Positions 7,255 through 40,683 are shown, counted from the first letter of the stretch. The stretch is DNA of 40,683 nt from Bacillota bacterium (GCA_021795575.1 JAJYPH010000009.1:1-40683), one strand, 5' to 3'. Program-made: numbers and translations. The notes: generated by a model not told the origin, from the sequence alone.

Positions 7255-7602
7255 ATGGACGACGGCGCGGCCTACCATGGAGGAGGAAGCAGATTGCTCG
7301 TGTCGTATACGCCGATCCTCGTGATCTTTGGCTTCTGGCTGGCCACGATGGTGGGCGCCGTGTGGGTCAGCGTGCACCTGGGTCACAAAAAGGACTTGTC
7401 ACTGCTGGGATGGGTTCTCGGCATCGTCCTGGGGTGGATCGGCGCGGTCATCATGCTGATCATTCCGGCGTCGGCGGAAGCCCAGCGCCGCGTGGCCCTG
7501 GCGAACGGCTTTGCCTGCCCCTACTGCCAGGAACCGGTGCGCCATGGCGCCACCGTGTGCCCACACTGCCAACGCGACCTGGGGGCGAGTACCAAGAACT
7601 AA
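7255..7602 (+). CDS. Small membrane protein with C-terminal zinc ribbon (copy 1)
   Basis: Two TM stretches (VIFGFWLATMVGAVWVSVHL, LGWVLGIVLGWIGAVIMLIIP) followed by CPYCQEPVRHGATVCPHC. Confidence 0.7.
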   Translation: MDDGAAYHGGGSRLLVSYTPILVIFGFWLATMVGAVWVSVHLGHKKDLSLLGWVLGIVLGWIGAVIMLIIPASAEAQRRVALANGFACPYCQEPVRHGATVCPHCQRDLGASTKN

Positions 7603-7658
7603 CCGCTGTCCGGTATGGGGCACACGCTGGCTGGCGCGCGCCAGAAGGAGGAGCACCG

Positions 7659-7955
7659 ATGGCAGTTGGGGTCGGCATTGCGACGCTGCTATCCCTAGCC
7701 TTCACGGTGGCAGCGGTTTGGGTCAGTGTGCATTTAGGCAACAAAAAGGGCATGGTGGCGCTGGGGTGGATCCTCGGCATCCTGTTGGGCTGGATTGGCG
7801 TGGTCATCATGCTGGTCATCCCCGCGTCGGCGGAAGTCCAGCGCCGCGAGGCGCTGGAGCACGGCTTTGCCTGCCCCTACTGCCAGGAACCGGTGCGCGA
7901 CGGCGCCACCGTGTGCCCCCACTGTCGACGCGACCTGAGGGCGGGCGGGAGCTGA
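7659..7955 (+). CDS. Small membrane protein with C-terminal zinc ribbon (copy 2, tandem paralogue)
   Basis: MAVGVGIATLLSLAFTVAAVWVSVHLGNKKGMVALGWILGILLGWIGVVIMLVIPASAEVQRREALEHGFACPYCQEPVRDGATVCPHCRRDL; AAGGAGG upstream of the ATG. Confidence 0.75.
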   Translation: MAVGVGIATLLSLAFTVAAVWVSVHLGNKKGMVALGWILGILLGWIGVVIMLVIPASAEVQRREALEHGFACPYCQEPVRDGATVCPHCRRDLRAGGS

Positions 7956-7981
7956 CCGGCCCGCCGTCGCGGTGTGCACGG

Positions 7982-33527: not shown

Positions 33528-33953
33528 CTACCCGCCGGCGCGCGGCATCACGGTGCGGCCGCTGAGCAACATGTGGTGGTCGAACGCAAAGACCGTGTCG
33601 ACGCCCTCGCGCTCTATGAATGCCAGGGACTGCGCATCGACGTACGACAATTCCTGGTCGGCGTAGCGGCTGATATTTTGGCGCGTATCACGGTCCACGT
33701 CCGGGTCCGGAAAGAGGACGACCAGTCCATGGTCGGCGACTGCCTGATCCCCGGCGTGCAGCCATCGCAGCGCTGCCGCGACATTGCGATGGTATCTCAG
33801 TCAGGTATATGTTTCCCCGACGACGCCCACACTGGTGACCTGCTGAACCGCGAGAGCGTCCGGAGCGCGGTTGTATTGCGCGGCCTCCGCGTGATGGTGG
33901 TCAGACGCATCGAACAGCGCGATAAACGCGCCGGTATCAATGAAAAGACTCAT
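33528..33953 (-). pseudogene. PIN-domain (VapC-like) toxin interrupted by a single in-frame UGA
   Basis: MSLFIDTGAFIALFDASDHHHAEAAQYNRAPDALAVQQVTSVGVVGETYT*LRYHRNVAAALRWLHAGDQAVADHGL...QELSYVDAQSLAFIEREGVDTVFAFDHHMLLSGRTVMPRAGG; same frame on both sides of the TGA at 33801-33803. Confidence 0.8.
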
Positions 33954-33960
33954 GCGACCA

Positions 33961-34191
33961 CTACTGCCGGTCATAGATGTCATCGTGGTGAGCACTGCCA
34001 GTACCGGCGCCCGACCGGACCATGCCAATGAGGTCCAAGAACGGATGGGAGCTTCGCGTCCGCCGCTGCAGGTATTCACCGAGCGCCTCGCGAATGACAT
34101 CGGCCTCCGACCGACCCTCGGCACGCGCTAGGCGTTGCCACGCCTGTTCCTGCGCCGACGAGAGATAGGGTTGCTTTCTGACGTAGCTCAC
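33961..34191 (-). CDS. Ribbon-helix-helix antitoxin (VapB/CopG-like)
   Basis: VSYVRKQPYLSSAQEQAWQRLARAEGRSEADVIREALGEYLQRR; lies 7 nt upstream of the PIN gene; GTG start proposed. Confidence 0.75.
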   Translation of the reverse strand: MSYVRKQPYLSSAQEQAWQRLARAEGRSEADVIREALGEYLQRRTRSSHPFLDLIGMVRSGAGTGSAHHDDIYDRQ

Positions 34192-34319
34192 GCGATCCAC
34201 CCCCTCGAGCACTGATGGCGTCGTCCCGCCCTTTCCGATCTGTCGACCTCACGGCGTCTAGACCCCATGACAGCGACAGCATGAGGTCCCGTCTAAACCC
34301 GGCTCAGCACGGCGGCTGC

Positions 34320-34400: not shown

Positions 34401-35291
34401 ATGAATCTCTGGAACCCGGATCACCTAACCCTGTTGCTGGTGCTGCCCACGGCGCTGCTGCTGGGGATGGTGCACGGCATCACGCCCGATGAGCACACGT
34501 GGCCGATTACATTTAGTTATGCGGTGGGCAGCTACTCGAGCCGAGCGGGCCGCCGCGTGGGCTTTCTGTTTTCGGCGGCGTTCACACTCCAGCGGGCGAT
34601 TGCGTCGGAGCTGGCGTTTCTGGCCCTCTCCAGCTTCGAATTTGCGACGCGGTGGCAGTACGACGTGTACGCGGTGGTGGGTCTGGTCATGGCGGCGTCC
34701 GGCCTGTACATCCTGCACCGTGGCCACCCGCTGCACTGGTCCGCCGGCCGCCACGGCCCGAATGACGACGGGCCACGGTCGGCTCCGCCCTACATGCCGC
34801 TGGTGCACGGCTTCATTGCGGGGTGGGGCATCGGGGCGTTTGCCGTCATCATCTACACGGTGCTGGCCCCCACCATGCCCAGCGCCTGGGTGGGCTGGGT
34901 ACCCGGTCTCCTGTTCGGCTTGGGCACCATGATTATGCAGATGATCCTGGGCAGTGCCTTTGGCGCGTGGATGGCGCGCCGCCGCCTGACCGCCGCCGCG
35001 CGCGAATTTGTCGCCCGTTCCATGAGCGGCAAAACCCTCACGGGCGGGGGGATAGCGTTTATGGCTGTGGCCGGCTTAGGCATCTTGGCACCTAGCCTGG
35101 TGTCGCATATCGTGATCGTGACCCCCATCCAGGTGCACAATCTGCACAACCTGGGAGCCGGGTTCTTCTTGGCGGTGCCCGCGCTGTTCGGTGTAGCCGT
35201 GTGGGCCTTTTGGTCCAGTCGGACCGAGGCGGCGCGACGATTTGGCGAGGATGCCCCGACCAGCGTCGGGCGGGAGGAGGTAACCACGTGA
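34401..35291 (+). CDS. Polytopic membrane protein with NiCoT-like HX4DEH motif, putative Ni/Co-type metal transporter
   Basis: LLGMVHGITPDEHTWPITFSYAVGSYSSRAGRRVGFLFSAAFTLQRAI; GAGGAGG RBS. Confidence 0.65.
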   Translation: MNLWNPDHLTLLLVLPTALLLGMVHGITPDEHTWPITFSYAVGSYSSRAGRRVGFLFSAAFTLQRAIASELAFLALSSFEFATRWQYDVYAVVGLVMAASGLYILHRGHPLHWSAGRHGPNDDGPRSAPPYMPLVHGFIAGWGIGAFAVIIYTVLAPTMPSAWVGWVPGLLFGLGTMIMQMILGSAFGAWMARRRLTAAAREFVARSMSGKTLTGGGIAFMAVAGLGILAPSLVSHIVIVTPIQVHNLHNLGAGFFLAVPALFGVAVWAFWSSRTEAARRFGEDAPTSVGREEVTT

Positions 35292-35752
35292 GCGTGCTGA
35301 ACTCTGACGCGGAGGCGCTCTTGCGCGAGCGCCTGCAGGCCCACGAGCTGCGCGTCACCCCGAACCGCCTGTCGGTGTTTCGCGCCCTGCTGCAAAGCGC
35401 GCGCCCGCTGTCGGTGCCCGAGCTGGCCACGCATCTCCAGGACGATGGCTTGAGCGTACCTACGCTGTACCGCATCATGGAGGTATTTTCCGCCATCGGC
35501 GTGACCCACCCCGTGCTGGTGGACCACCAGTCGGTGGGCTACGAGCTGCGCGAGCCGTTTCGGTCCCACCACGACCACCTGGTGTGCAGCGCCTGCGGCC
35601 GCGTGGTGGATCTTTACAACTGCGACTTGACGGAAGCGATGGCGCAGCTGGGACGCGACAACCACTGCCGCGTGAACTTCCACCAGGTGGAGTTGCACGG
35701 CCTGTGCGCCGACTGCGCGGCGGTCAAAGGGGCCGAAGTGGCTCGGGGATAG
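35288..35752 (+). CDS. Fur family transcriptional regulator
   Basis: ERLQAHELRVTPNRLSVFRALLQSARPLSVPELATHLQDDGLSVPTLYRIMEVFSAIGV...SHHDHLVCSACGRVVDL...GLCADCAA; GTGA overlap with the transporter. Confidence 0.92.
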   Translation: MSVLNSDAEALLRERLQAHELRVTPNRLSVFRALLQSARPLSVPELATHLQDDGLSVPTLYRIMEVFSAIGVTHPVLVDHQSVGYELREPFRSHHDHLVCSACGRVVDLYNCDLTEAMAQLGRDNHCRVNFHQVELHGLCADCAAVKGAEVARG

Positions 35753-35844: not shown

Positions 35845-36170
35845 GTGCCCTGGAGGCTCCAGGGCCCATACCGAACCCGGCCCATCCGGGTTGACGTGCC
35901 GGAGGGTGCGCTCCGCACGTTCTGTGAGCAGAACGCGGTCCGGGAGCTCAGCCTGTTCGGCTCGGTCCTGCGCGAGGACTTTACTCCCGAAAGCGACATC
36001 GACGTGCTGCCCACCCGCCAGCTGACGTTTGCGGTCCTTGCCCAGATGGAGGACGACCTGGAACGGTTATTTCATCGCGCGTCGATCTCGTGTTAAAGCA
36101 CACGCTGTCGCCGTATATCGCGGCCGATGTGTTGCGCCAGCGGCGGGTGCTGTATGTCGCAACACACTGA
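35845..36170 (+). pseudogene. MNT-domain nucleotidyltransferase antitoxin (MntA-like) #1, frameshifted
   Basis: LSLFGSVLREDFTPESDIDVL (GSX10DXD), then frameshift after LFHR into VDLVLKHTLSPYIAADVLRQRRVLYVATH*. Confidence 0.8.
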
Positions 36171-36536
36171 CGCGCTTTACCTCGGACACATCCACGACGC
36201 CGCGCACCGTGCGCCTCATACGTCGACCGCCTCACGTGGGATGACTTCCTGGACAATGAACTGGTCCAGGACGGCGTCATTCGCCAGCTCGAAATCGTAG
36301 GTGAAGCGGTCAAGCGCGTGAGCGACGCGTTTCGGTCCACTAATCCGGACTGGCCGTGGACCGAGATGCGTTCCATGCGAAACCATCAGACGCACGGCTA
36401 CGCCAACGTCGATGTCCAGATCGTGTGGGCCACCGCCGCCAACGACCTACCTCGGCTGGCCAACTTGGCCGCAGCCCCCTCGATTGCCAACAAGCCGGTC
36501 GCTCCTAGACGTCCTGAGGGCATCACCGCGACCTAG
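36154..36536 (+). pseudogene. HEPN-domain toxin (HepT-like) #1, frameshifted
   Basis: MSQHTDALYLGHIHDAAHR then frameshift to ASYVDRLTWDDFLDNELVQDGVIRQLEIVGEAVKRVSDAFRS...MRSMRNHQTHGYANVDVQIVW; RX4HXY present. Confidence 0.8.
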
Positions 36537-36667
36537 TGCACGTGATCGCGGCGGATGCCCGCGTGGTAGACTACCAACAGTTGTTTTGCCTCCGAGTCCG
36601 AGGGATGCTCCGCGGCAGTAGCACTAGCGGGTGATGTCGGCCGCGAGATTGCAGGAGGAACGTCGTC

Positions 36668-36988
36668 GTGAAAATTGAACCCCACACTCTCTCAATCGAA
36701 TTACATCGCGATGAGTTAAGAAGAATTTGCCAAAGCTTTGGAGTACAAGAACTCCGTCTGTTCGGATCCGTATTGCGAAATGATTTTCATGCCCAGAGCG
36801 ACATCGACGTCTTGTGTACGTTGCAGCCAGCCTCCCCGGCCCGCGGTATGAGGTGGATCGACCTCCTCTTAGCTTTGGAGGACATGTGGGGCCGGCCGGT
36901 CGATCTCGTTAAACCAAAGTTTCTTAACCGCATGATTCGGGAGGAAGTTTTGCAGGAGGCACAAACGATCTATGTCGCGTCATCATGA
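36668..36988 (+). CDS. MNT-domain nucleotidyltransferase antitoxin (MntA-like) #2, intact
   Basis: CQSFGVQELRLFGSVLRNDFHAQSDIDVLCTL...LLALEDMWGRPVDLVKPKFLNRMIREEVLQEAQTIYVASS; GSX10DXD. Confidence 0.9.
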   Translation: MKIEPHTLSIELHRDELRRICQSFGVQELRLFGSVLRNDFHAQSDIDVLCTLQPASPARGMRWIDLLLALEDMWGRPVDLVKPKFLNRMIREEVLQEAQTIYVASS

Positions 36989-37328
36989 GGAGCTCTATGT
37001 CGGCCATATTCAAAACCCCATTGCGAACGCCATCAACTGGGCGAGTCATGTAACCCAAGCCGAGTTCATGAGCGATGAATTCGTCCAGTCCGCCATTATC
37101 CGGCAGCTGGAAATTGCCGGGGAGGCCGCGGGACGTCTATCGGAGGCGTTTCGCCAAGCCCATCCGGAGATTGAGGCCCGGCGTCTCAAAGCGTTGAGAA
37201 ACGTCCTCATACACGGATATGCAGATGTCGACCTTGATACGGTGTGGGACATTGTGACACACGACCTGCCAGCGCTCCAAAGACAGTTGCGGGGTCAGGG
37301 TGATTCCGGGCGACACGCGGGGGACTGA
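36972..37328 (+). CDS. HEPN-domain toxin (HepT-like) #2, intact
   Basis: MSRHHEELYVGHIQNPIANAINWASHVTQAEFMSDEFVQSAIIRQLEIAGEAAGRLSEAFRQAHPEIEARRLKALRNVLIHGYADVDLDTVWDIV; RX4HXY = RNVLIHGY. Confidence 0.9.
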   Translation: MSRHHEELYVGHIQNPIANAINWASHVTQAEFMSDEFVQSAIIRQLEIAGEAAGRLSEAFRQAHPEIEARRLKALRNVLIHGYADVDLDTVWDIVTHDLPALQRQLRGQGDSGRHAGD

Positions 37329-37552
37329 ACACGCTGACTCCGGCTCGGCTGGGCGAGGCACCGCCGTGAACGCACGCGGATTCATGCGGATGTGCGGGAC
37401 CAACAGCGTCGGCGCGGCGGCCGCTGCCGCGCCAGCACTTGGCCCAACCACCCGTGGTGGCCGCAGTCAACCAAGACGTCCGCAGCACATCAGCACGACG
37501 TGGTGGTGTCGAGGTAGGCTCCAGCCCCGTAGATCTAACACGGGCGACGTTC

Positions 37553-38245
37553 TCACGCGTCCTTTCGCTTGACGGCGGCGGACGGCTCGGGCTCGGGGCT
37601 AGACATAGCCTCAACTGCACGGGTGCGGCCCGCCGACGGCCCACTGACAAACATCATGACCAAGGCAATCCACAGCAACTCCGCGCCGATGAAGATGCGC
37701 TCTTCGAGGCCTCCGAGGCTGTGTGGGTGAAATCCGCTCCGCCCCAAGGCCAGGAACGCCAGCGCTGCTATCACCCAGACCGCCACCACCATGACGGACA
37801 CGCGTCCGGCTCGGCGCAGGGCCATCGTCAGCAGGAGCGTGCCCACGACACAGCTGATGAACGCCAGCATGGCGAGAACCAGGTGAATGACACCATGTGG
37901 GGTTGGGGGCGCCCCCTCCAGGTCGTCGGGGAAAAACGCCAAGAGACCGGACAGCACGCCCCACAGGCCGACTAGGACAATCCCCACGCGCGCGAGGGCG
38001 GTCGCCGACAGCGTCCGCCACAGGACCACACCGGCCAACAGCGACAGCACACCCCGTATCAGAAAATTGGCGTCCATCACCCAGGCGTAAGGACCGCCGT
38101 GACCGTAGTCGCTCTCGGCATTGTGGAGCAGGCTCAGATTAGGTTCCAGGAAATGCAGGAGTACGTCGATGCCGGCATACAGCACGACACCCACCACCAC
38201 CAGCCTGGCAGCGTCCCGCAGGTAGAACGACGGTGCGGTCCTCAT
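37553..38245 (-). CDS. DUF998-like integral membrane protein
   Basis: Six hydrophobic segments; YAGIDVLLHFLEPNLSLLHNAESDYGHGGPYAWVMDANFLIRGVLSL. Confidence 0.7.
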   Translation of the reverse strand: MRTAPSFYLRDAARLVVVGVVLYAGIDVLLHFLEPNLSLLHNAESDYGHGGPYAWVMDANFLIRGVLSLLAGVVLWRTLSATALARVGIVLVGLWGVLSGLLAFFPDDLEGAPPTPHGVIHLVLAMLAFISCVVGTLLLTMALRRAGRVSVMVVAVWVIAALAFLALGRSGFHPHSLGGLEERIFIGAELLWIALVMMFVSGPSAGRTRAVEAMSSPEPEPSAAVKRKDA

Positions 38246-38395
38246 GGTCTCCCCCTCTTACGCCAAACAACGTCGGACTCTCTGAGCCCGTCGGACACCC
38301 TCCAACGGTCAAGGACCCGGGATCGGGCCGGAGAAGTCGCCTGCGGCTACGCAAACGGACACTGTGAGAACCAGCCACGTTTGTTGACGGGGCGC

Positions 38396-38430
38396 CTCCC
38401 ATATACGCAACCAGGTTGCCTATATGGGAG
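38396..38430. promoter_or_regulatory. 35-bp near-perfect palindrome, candidate MarR operator
   Basis: CTCCCATATAcGCAACCaGGTTGCcTATATGGGAG: 16 of 17 base pairs symmetric; ends 12 bp before the MarR ATG. Confidence 0.75.
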
Positions 38431-38442
38431 TATGATAGGCTT

Positions 38443-38952
38443 ATGAGTACACTGTCAAGCGACCCGTACGGATTCGGCGACCTTCTAGCGCTGGCGCGCG
38501 CAAGCTGGGTGGCCCAGATGGCCGACGCTCTCGAGGCGCAGGGCTACCCAGGCTACCGCCGCACCGATGCCTGGGCCATGAGGTTACTCGCCTCCGGGCC
38601 CGTTCCCATCACGCAGGTGGGCAAGCGGTTCGGCATCTCACGCCAGGCTGGCCGCAAGGTGGTAGACGGACTCATGGCTCGCGGGTATGCCGCCACTGAC
38701 CCGGACGTGACCGACCGCCGCCGCGTCAACGTGTCCCTCACCCCGGCGGGCGCCGCCTACGCAGACGCGGTCATCGCCGTGATCCGAGAGCAGAACGGCA
38801 GCCTTGCAGCCCTCGTGGAGCCCCGAGATCTTGAGGCGGCAGACCGGGTGCTTCGCGCCGCCATGGACGAGCGAGCCCGGCAGACCGCGCAGCGCCTGGT
38901 GCGGCCGGCGCGATCGTTGGCAGAGGCAGCCCTTCCGGACGAGGTCAGCTAA
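38443..38952 (+). CDS. MarR family transcriptional regulator
   Basis: AMRLLASGPVPITQVGKRFGISRQAGRKVVDGLMARGYAATDPDVTDRRRVNVSLTPAGAAYADAV. Confidence 0.92.
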   Translation: MSTLSSDPYGFGDLLALARASWVAQMADALEAQGYPGYRRTDAWAMRLLASGPVPITQVGKRFGISRQAGRKVVDGLMARGYAATDPDVTDRRRVNVSLTPAGAAYADAVIAVIREQNGSLAALVEPRDLEAADRVLRAAMDERARQTAQRLVRPARSLAEAALPDEVS

Positions 38953-39596
38953 TGCCGTCTCGACTGGGCTCCACTGGTCCCGCGTGGGGCCTGGGGCAAC
39001 AGCCGGTCGAGAAGGAGTGGTACACAAATGCAGCCTCTGCTGGTGTTCCGCTCGCGCTCACGCTATCGCGCCTCTAACGAGGGGATCGAGGTCAGTGGCT
39101 GCCGTTCGTTGGCATCACCTCCCGGGCGCTTTTACACACTATACGGTACGTGACTCCGATTCTGGGATTTTAGCTCCAGCAGACCGCGGTCAGGGTGGAG
39201 GGCACAACGGCAGCGACGCTCACCGGAAGTCCAGACGAGGAGAGGCATCCACGCGATGGCCCGTCTCCCCACTGGGCCACTAGCCTGATCCGGGTGTGGG
39301 CGTGGGGGACCAGCACCCAGTATCCGCGCCTTCCAAGGCTGTTGCTGCGCCACGACGCTGGAGCCGATCCACCTATAGCGCTCCCCGCGTGGTCGCCCGC
39401 TCCCTCCTTCGCCGAGTTTGCCACCGGATGCGCGGCCCCTCTCTCCTCATCGCTACGGCCGATACCGGCGGGAACACCGAGCGTGTTCCCGACCGCCCCT
39501 CCCCACTTTGGCCCCAAAGACTCTCGGCGTAGAACTGCCGGACTCCCGTGGTAGAATGACAGCAATCACTGCGGTGCCCGAAGGGGGGAGACACCG

Positions 39597-40076
39597 ATGG
39601 CCCAAGTCCATGTTCCGACTCATCTGCCAGTCGCCGTCGATGCAGCGGCCCTCACAGCGATCGCGGAGCGCCACCAGGTGCAGGAACTCGCCCTCTTCGG
39701 GTCCGTCCTGCGCGACGATTTCACGGCGGCGAGCGACATTGACGTGTTGATTACCTTCCAACCGGACCGTCCTTTTTTGCGGCTCTTCGAACTGTTCGAT
39801 ATGCAGTTCGCCCTGGAAGACCTCCTCCATCGACCAGTGGATCTTGTTCCGGCCGATGCCCTGCATCCCCTGATTGCCCAGGACGTTCTCAACAGGAAGG
39901 TGGTCATCTACGTCGCAACACCAAGTGCTGCTGTATCTCATCCACATGCGGGACGCCTGCCATCGCTGAACGCTATACCGGTGGGGTCTCCTGGGAGATG
40001 TTTGCAGAGAACGACGAAAAACAAAGTGCGGTGGTTCGGCAGCTGGAGATCATCGGCGAGGCTGGCAATCGAATAG
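39597..40076 (+). pseudogene. MNT-domain nucleotidyltransferase antitoxin (MntA-like) #3, stop codon lost and C-terminus extended out of family
   Basis: ALTAIAERHQVQELALFGSVLRDDFTAASDIDVLITFQPDRPFLRLFELFDMQFALEDLLHRPVDLVPADALHPLIAQDVLNRKVVIYVAT, then ~50 residues read through the HEPN gene in another frame. The catalytic core is intact, so it may be functional. Confidence 0.75.
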
Positions 40077-40282
40077 ATCCCACTGTGCAGGCCCGGCACC
40101 CGGCGATCCCCTGGCGCCACACCACGGCGCTTCGGAACCTCCTGATCCACGGGTACGATGATGTGCATCTCGAACAGATCTGGGACATTGTGCAGACCGA
40201 GATCCCGGTCTTGCTCCGAAGCATAGAAGCCTCAATCGCTAGCATGGCGCTGGAGGACCGGCCTCCGGAGGCGGAACGCTAG
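39910..40282 (+). pseudogene. HEPN-domain toxin (HepT-like) #3, start lost (ACG) and frameshifted
   Basis: Frame 1: (ACG)SQHQVLLYLIHMRDACHR*; shifted frame: AERYTGGVSWEMFAENDEKQSAVVRQLEIIGEAGNRIDPTVQARHPAIPWRHTTALRNLLIHGYDDVHLEQIWDIV. Confidence 0.8.
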
Positions 40283-40400
40283 ATCACCCGTAGTGTTTTT
40301 TCCGGCGGCGGGAGGGACGGAGTCGGTGGAGATCGCAGGGACCCCTCTGTGCCATGGTAGTTGTGGGCAGAGACCTCTGCTACAATGACGCTTCGAGATG

Positions 40401-40683
40401 ATGTCCGTGGCGATTCGAGCTGAAGAGACCGAGATTGAAGTGCGGGCCTACCGGCGTCCGTTTTCGGCGGCCTACAAGCTCCGCATTCTGGCCGAAGCGG
40501 ATGCCTGCACCGAGCCGGGCGCCATTGGTGCTTAGTTGCGCCGCGAAGGGTTGTATTCGTCCCACCTGGCCACCTGGCGGGCCCAACGGGCGGCCGGCGC
40601 CCGCGCGGCCCTGGGGCAGCCGCGGGGGCGCAAGCCGCCACCGGCCCTGGTCCGCGAGAATGCCCGGCTTCGCCCAGAGCTGG
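40401..40683 (+). pseudogene. IS3-type transposase orfA (HTH) fragment with in-frame TAG, runs off the window
   Basis: [93 protein letters not shown]. Confidence 0.75.

Follow-up and report, generated by a model that had tools for sequence, protein, structure and literature searches.

The HepT/MntA pair of Shewanella oneidensis (SO_3166/SO_3165) is a type VII toxin-antitoxin system in which the HEPN protein cuts RNA and the MNT protein adds AMP to the Tyr of the RX4HXY motif (PMC7641770). Class I pairs are defined as neighbouring PF01934 and PF01909 genes that carry RX4HXY and GSX10DXD (PMC7641770). A HEPN-MNT pair from Legionella pneumophila has the same motifs as the modules described here; its HEPN toxin is reported to be Mg-dependent with a different catalytic site, and catalytic details can thus differ within HEPN-MNT systems (PMC11586414). 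Broken or lost toxins beside kept antitoxins, the pattern also found here, are known from degraded type II loci of families other than HEPN/MNT, both in a Klebsiella survey (PMC7192599) and in a review (PMC7354431).

The window, meaning the whole stretch of 40,683 nucleotides analysed, is contig C274 of a draft genome (G000; 3.68 Mb, 305 contigs), which is placed in the Sulfobacillus group on the basis of its close relatives, Bacillota MAGs and Sulfobacillus harzensis. It encodes three MNT-HEPN pairs, all on the + strand with MNT 5' of HEPN (Table 1). As a preliminary description made from the sequence alone had reported, GSX10DXD and RX4HXY are present in all of them. Profile searches likewise bear out its assignment of all six parts to HEPN/MNT toxin-antitoxin families, as the three HEPNs pass the cut-off of PF01934 (HepT-like) and the three MNTs that of PF01909 (NTP_transf_2).

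Table 1. Features of the window around the three MNT-HEPN modules (E values for HEPN genes from the protein scan, for HEPN domains from the genome-wide scan)
Feature	Position	Strand	Profile match	Remarks
VapC-like PIN toxin pseudogene	33528..33953	-	PIN match weak, E 0.01, below cut-off	in-frame stop at 33801-33803
VapB-like antitoxin, open	33961..34212	-	PF07704 E 1.3e-4 and RHH_1, both just below cut-off	
fur-like gene	35288..35752	+		anchors the variable site on its left; orthologues in G001, G002 and G003 occupy the same place
Module 1	35845-36536	+		both genes broken
MNT1 pseudogene, antitoxin of module 1	35845..36170	+	PF01909 E 8.2e-7, over cut-off; PF18765 E 5.2e-6	GSX10DXD: GSVLREDFTPESDID
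HEPN1 pseudogene, toxin of module 1	36154..36536	+	PF01934 E 4.8e-22	RNHQTHGY retained
HEPN1 domain	36213-36470	+	PF01934 E 1.6e-21	
Module 2	36668-37328	+		both frames open
MNT2, open, antitoxin of module 2	36668..36988	+	PF01909 E 1.3e-11	GTG start after AGGAGG; GSX10DXD: GSVLRNDFHAQSDID
HEPN2, open, toxin of module 2	36972..37328	+	PF01934 E 4.4e-25	RNVLIHGY
HEPN2 domain	37047-37289	+	PF01934 E 1.3e-24	
DUF998 membrane protein	37553..38245	-	PF06197 E 2.1e-26	cargo between modules 2 and 3
MarR-like regulator	38416..38952	+	PF12802 E 4.3e-7	cargo between modules 2 and 3
Module 3	39597-40282	+		HEPN broken
MNT3, open, antitoxin of module 3	39597..40076	+	PF01909 E 5.1e-16	GSX10DXD: GSVLRDDFTAASDID
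HEPN3 pseudogene, toxin of module 3	39910..40282	+	PF01934 E 1.6e-22	RNLLIHGY
HEPN3 domain	39965-40228	+	PF01934 E 4.8e-22	
IS transposase-like frame	40399-40683	+		in-frame stop near 40534; reaches contig end

Applied here as a HEPN of PF01934 or PF08780 adjoining an MNT of PF01909, with RX4HXY in the former and GSX10DXD in the latter, the Class I definition describes 3/3 modules. Judged by sequence, the three belong to the ordinary Class I HEPN/MNT toxin-antitoxin systems (HepT/MntA-like, type VII). They share the family pair, the motifs and the gene adjacency with the Shewanella oneidensis system, but none of the three (0/3) reaches the 60-bit cut-off of the NCBIfam HepT/MntA equivalogs (NF047751, NF047752): modules 1, 2 and 3 score 31.7, 40.0 and 32.8 bits for HepT and 23.1, 43.2 and 53.3 bits for MntA. 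The modules are therefore relatives, not close orthologues, of the tested HepT/MntA proteins. MNT2 aligns over residues 10-98 of 106 with PDB 1wot, a putative minimal nucleotidyltransferase (E 1.6e-8), which is a structure of the MNT alone and whose entry gives no function; a sequence search of solved structures with HEPN2 returned no match at E 0.001. Profiles of the PADLOC phage-defence candidate PDC-S09 match all three MNTs (best E 2e-27), though this is a candidate model only and its coverage does not include the HEPN partner. Phage records yielded only five weak matches, which gives no support for a phage origin. Among plasmid records there are many relatives, none above 60% identity, and no recent plasmid donor was found.

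The three modules differ in their state of preservation. Only module 2 has both frames open, its genes overlapping by 17 bases (36972-36988). In module 1, MNT1 has a frameshift near 36079 and is one base shorter near 35881 than its counterpart in the sister genome G001, while the HEPN1 frame is broken near 36205. In G001, a 342-bp deletion removes the equivalent of window positions 36061-36402, and G003 has a shredded copy whose pieces match 35879-35977 and 36104-36167. In module 3, HEPN3 is frameshifted at 39966/39967, outside any repeat, and this lesion puts the tail of MNT3 out of register. The preliminary description of one intact and two decayed modules thus stands for modules 1 and 2 and for HEPN3, but not for MNT3, whose frame is intact.

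MNT3 is open in three species, in two of which HEPN3 is broken. HEPN3 is open in G001, and in G003 it carries a different frameshift, located in a run of A; each of the module 3 lesions involves 1-2 bases. The usual ATG start site of HEPN3 is ACG in the window, G001 and G003, so that even the open frame of G001 has to start further downstream, at a GTG or ATG. In the window, a truncated HEPN3 product could start from the ATG at 39998. MNT3 differs between the window and G003 by 20 synonymous and 11 non-synonymous changes (dN/dS ~0.16), a firmer estimate than those between the window and G001, where each module gene has just 1-3 synonymous changes and the values carry little weight.

The site behind the fur-like gene was compared in four congeners, namely the window genome, its sister G001 (TL1-2.bin2), G002 and G003. 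In G002, similarity to the window stops at the fur gene, with no module behind it. G003 has module 3 immediately after the shredded module 1 remnant, and lacks module 2, DUF998 and MarR at this site. The G001 contig contains the deleted module 1, module 2, DUF998 and MarR and then ends in sequence not found in the window, while a second G001 contig starts with a transposase-like gene followed by module 3 at 98% identity. Given these two unjoined contigs, one IS has apparently inserted between MarR and module 3 in G001; the contig ends themselves comprise the transposase-like gene (L056:1-1174) and the foreign sequence (end of L052). The DUF998 and MarR genes (37553-38952) adjoin module 2 in both G000 and G001. 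The VapBC-like pair (33528-34212) is present in G001 and absent from G003. This synteny, which runs from no module (G002) through a remnant and module 3 (G003) to all three (G000 and G001), supports reading the site as a variable one of toxin-antitoxin turnover, in line with the earlier suggestion of a turnover island beside VapBC and IS debris. From no module through one with a relic to three, the four congeners form a small natural series in which the gain and disarming of modules can be studied. As separate observations, the MarR gene is under relaxed constraint (dN/dS ~0.64, G000 versus G001), and a second, partial copy of module 2 lies near a contig end in G001 (C82; L055:5802-6228), comprising the 3' half and ~210 bp of flank at 86% identity.

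Comparison of the window with G001 gives a synonymous divergence of 0.029 for MNT2, 0.037 for HEPN2, 0.024 for MNT3 and 0.013 for HEPN3, as against 0.157 for fur and 0.227 for the MFS gene. The difference of the modules from fur is significant (Fisher p 0.001 and 6e-5, computed on rounded site counts). Because of this low divergence, modules 2 and 3 were probably exchanged between the window species and G001 after the split, and the lesions would be younger still. The window has an open HEPN2 and a frameshifted HEPN3, and in G001 the states are reversed, with HEPN2 frameshifted and HEPN3 open. VapC, a pseudogene in the window, has an open frame in G001, but the first Asp of its PIN motif (FIDTGAF) is His, a change that presumably kills the toxin. 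This pattern leaves each sister genome with one intact-looking toxin frame out of four, a different one in each. Except for MNT1, the partner antitoxins have open frames in both genomes, the G001 VapB from a later start.

The relationships of the modules were addressed with a joint MNT+HEPN tree of 85 loci (IQ-TREE, LG+F+R4). Module 2 belongs to a clade of eight (bootstrap 100) that otherwise comprises its counterpart in G001 and those of six genomes from a different family of the same order (G014, G030, G032, G034, G035 and G037). Its amino-acid identity is ~0.73-0.81 to the other-family copies and 0.41-0.50 to its neighbouring modules, and DNA similarity to the other-family copies is confined to the two-gene module. 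The tree placement together with this confined similarity supports a separate acquisition of module 2. The copies of module 3 in the window, G001 and G003 make up a clade restricted to the genus (bootstrap 100), which module 1 joins with weak support (bootstrap 72). Pairwise identity among the modules of the window is 33-45% for the HEPNs and 41-51% for the MNTs. With module 2 nested among other-family copies and module 3 confined to the genus, the three modules are not products of recent tandem copying, in agreement with the preliminary description. An old tandem duplication at the site followed by divergence, in place of separate capture, is unlikely for the locus as a whole. It draws on the single clade of modules 1 and 3, yet the support of that clade is only 72, the tree speaks against it for module 2, which is far closer to the other-family copies than to its neighbours, and clusters elsewhere in the phylum likewise hold dissimilar HEPNs (20-45% identical). 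The former alternative of independent acquisitions or old duplications therefore leans towards acquisition for module 2, and modules 1 and 3 possibly stem from an old duplication.

Such clusters are not peculiar to the window. PF01934 is found in 38 of the 41 genomes nearest the window; multiple copies are frequent, and many copies are fragmented. A count made by eye over a sample of 150 genomes of the phylum gives at least eight HEPN pairs within ~5 kb of each other, versus 1.2 expected, and one contig (G148:C3) carries three HEPNs within 5.5 kb. Clusters of unlike modules are a recurrent feature, of which the window is one example. Besides the window, clusters of several unlike MNT-HEPN modules within a few kb include L142 (G148:C3:51000-60500) and L143 (G173:C109:27500-34500).

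Which partner breaks first was addressed by a census of all HEPN-seeded loci in the 41 related genomes, with frames scored by profile hits and then by frameshift-aware alignment to the nearest open relative. Scores were corrected by hand for long-type HEPNs, since these come out of the alignment as partial, and for the truncated HEPNs of L112 and L116. Profile hits had given module 1 as MNT broken/HEPN open and module 3 as open/open, statuses overturned by the frameshift-aware alignment and by reading of the frames; both modules were misread because their lesions lie near the HEPN start. Among the census loci, which are related by descent, have statuses mostly from draft genomes and were scored by hand partly after the result had been seen, ~28 have MNT open and HEPN broken versus three with the reverse (L041, L043 and L090; binomial p 5e-6). 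A generous census, in which the lesion shared by L067 and L085 was dropped and two HEPNs without a found MNT were counted on the opposite side, gave 27 versus 5 (p 1e-4). Because the census is seeded on HEPN, loci that have lost it wholly are uncounted, a bias that works against the toxin-first result. A further 9-11 loci of the 41 genomes have both genes broken, as expected if the rest of the module erodes after the toxin. In other classes of the phylum, the MNT was open in 19/19 loci sampled with an open HEPN. It was also open in nine of the loci selected for a damaged HEPN, including some from single-contig genomes, a set that is supportive only because HEPN damage was the basis of its selection.

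That the HEPN breaks first points indirectly to the HEPN as the toxin, with gene order and gene identity confounded in that the census HEPN is always the downstream gene. This reading is in line with the toxin assigned by experiment and runs against the initial bioinformatic proposal for the toxin partner (PMC2701414; noted in PMC3710099). The literature searched, which spanned part of the field, contained no published break-first count for HEPN/MNT. With such a count, the identity of the toxin partner can be tested independently from genomes. As an extension of a known system, toxin-first decay is modest and testable, its principle being already known from other families.

Could the broken HEPN frames be errors of assembly or sequencing, with all three modules functional? 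The window and most of its relatives are draft metagenome assemblies, and the small size of the module 3 lesions would suit such an origin. Errors, however, should affect MNT and HEPN alike, in contrast to the strong imbalance of the census; module 1 carries several lesions and is deleted or shredded in its relatives, and similar half-broken loci occur in the single-contig genomes G055, G084 and G125. Errors are thus a highly improbable source of the pattern. Phase variation of the HEPN by slippage, or programmed frameshifting, would account for the recurrence of HEPN frameshifts in many loci, and the G003 lesion in a run of A is of the kind it would produce. The HEPN lesions are nearly all different, however: they are spread along the gene, include shifts of either sign, stops and truncations, and most are unique to one locus, and the window HEPN3 lesion does not lie in a repeat. 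Phase variation was rejected, as the lesions have no common site, and we regard it as scarcely credible.

A further alternative is that orphan MNTs are kept on purpose, in an anti-addiction or regulatory role, and that toxin loss is adaptive. Anti-addiction by orphan antitoxins has been proposed for other families (PMC7354431, PMC7192599), and MNT3 has stayed open and conserved in three species despite the broken HEPN3 of two of them. Long-term upkeep was sought as lower HEPN conservation in half-broken loci, and no difference was detected: identity to the nearest open relative is 0.83 for HEPN and 0.84 for MNT in half-broken loci, and 0.863 and 0.865 in intact ones. Since the HEPN is as conserved as the MNT in half-broken loci, the toxin losses appear young, and no sign of long retention of orphan MNTs was found. 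The conservation of MNT3 may accordingly predate the loss of its toxin, and purposeful retention appears improbable.

The best overall explanation, which we hold with high confidence, is a stack of separately derived Class I modules subject to turnover, in which the HEPN usually breaks first. The families, motifs, frames, synteny, phylogeny and asymmetry of decay were observed directly, and the biochemical activity and the selective reason are what we infer from them. At least two, perhaps three, separately derived modules would have piled up behind the fur-like gene of a Sulfobacillia genome, gained and lost by transfer and recombination. In module 2, HEPN2 would act as an RNase toxin, silenced by MNT2 through AMPylation of the Tyr in RX4HXY; modules 1 and 3 would be relics with a dead toxin. 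Loss of the antitoxin first should be costly and loss of the toxin first tolerated, so that the toxin-first pattern would be expected if the HEPN is the toxin. After arrival, the HEPN would usually break first, so that an orphan MNT persists briefly until the module as a whole decays.

A broader life cycle may tentatively be proposed for Sulfobacillia, although we consider it somewhat less than an even chance. Capture at clustered sites would be followed by quick loss of the HEPN with the MNT spared and then by erosion, and sister lineages would silence different toxins until about one live frame per site is left. If true, such a cycle would provide an evolutionary assay of the toxin partner that could be used for untested two-gene modules.

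Two further observations concern the window and its genome. At 7357-7958, two stretches match G001 at more than one nearby place, which suggests a local repeat with unequal exchange. The window's own genome also holds two additional MNT-HEPN loci (G000:C235:6401-7140 and G000:C227:1292-1813), one a long-type pair with both frames open and the other with an open MNT and a broken HEPN.
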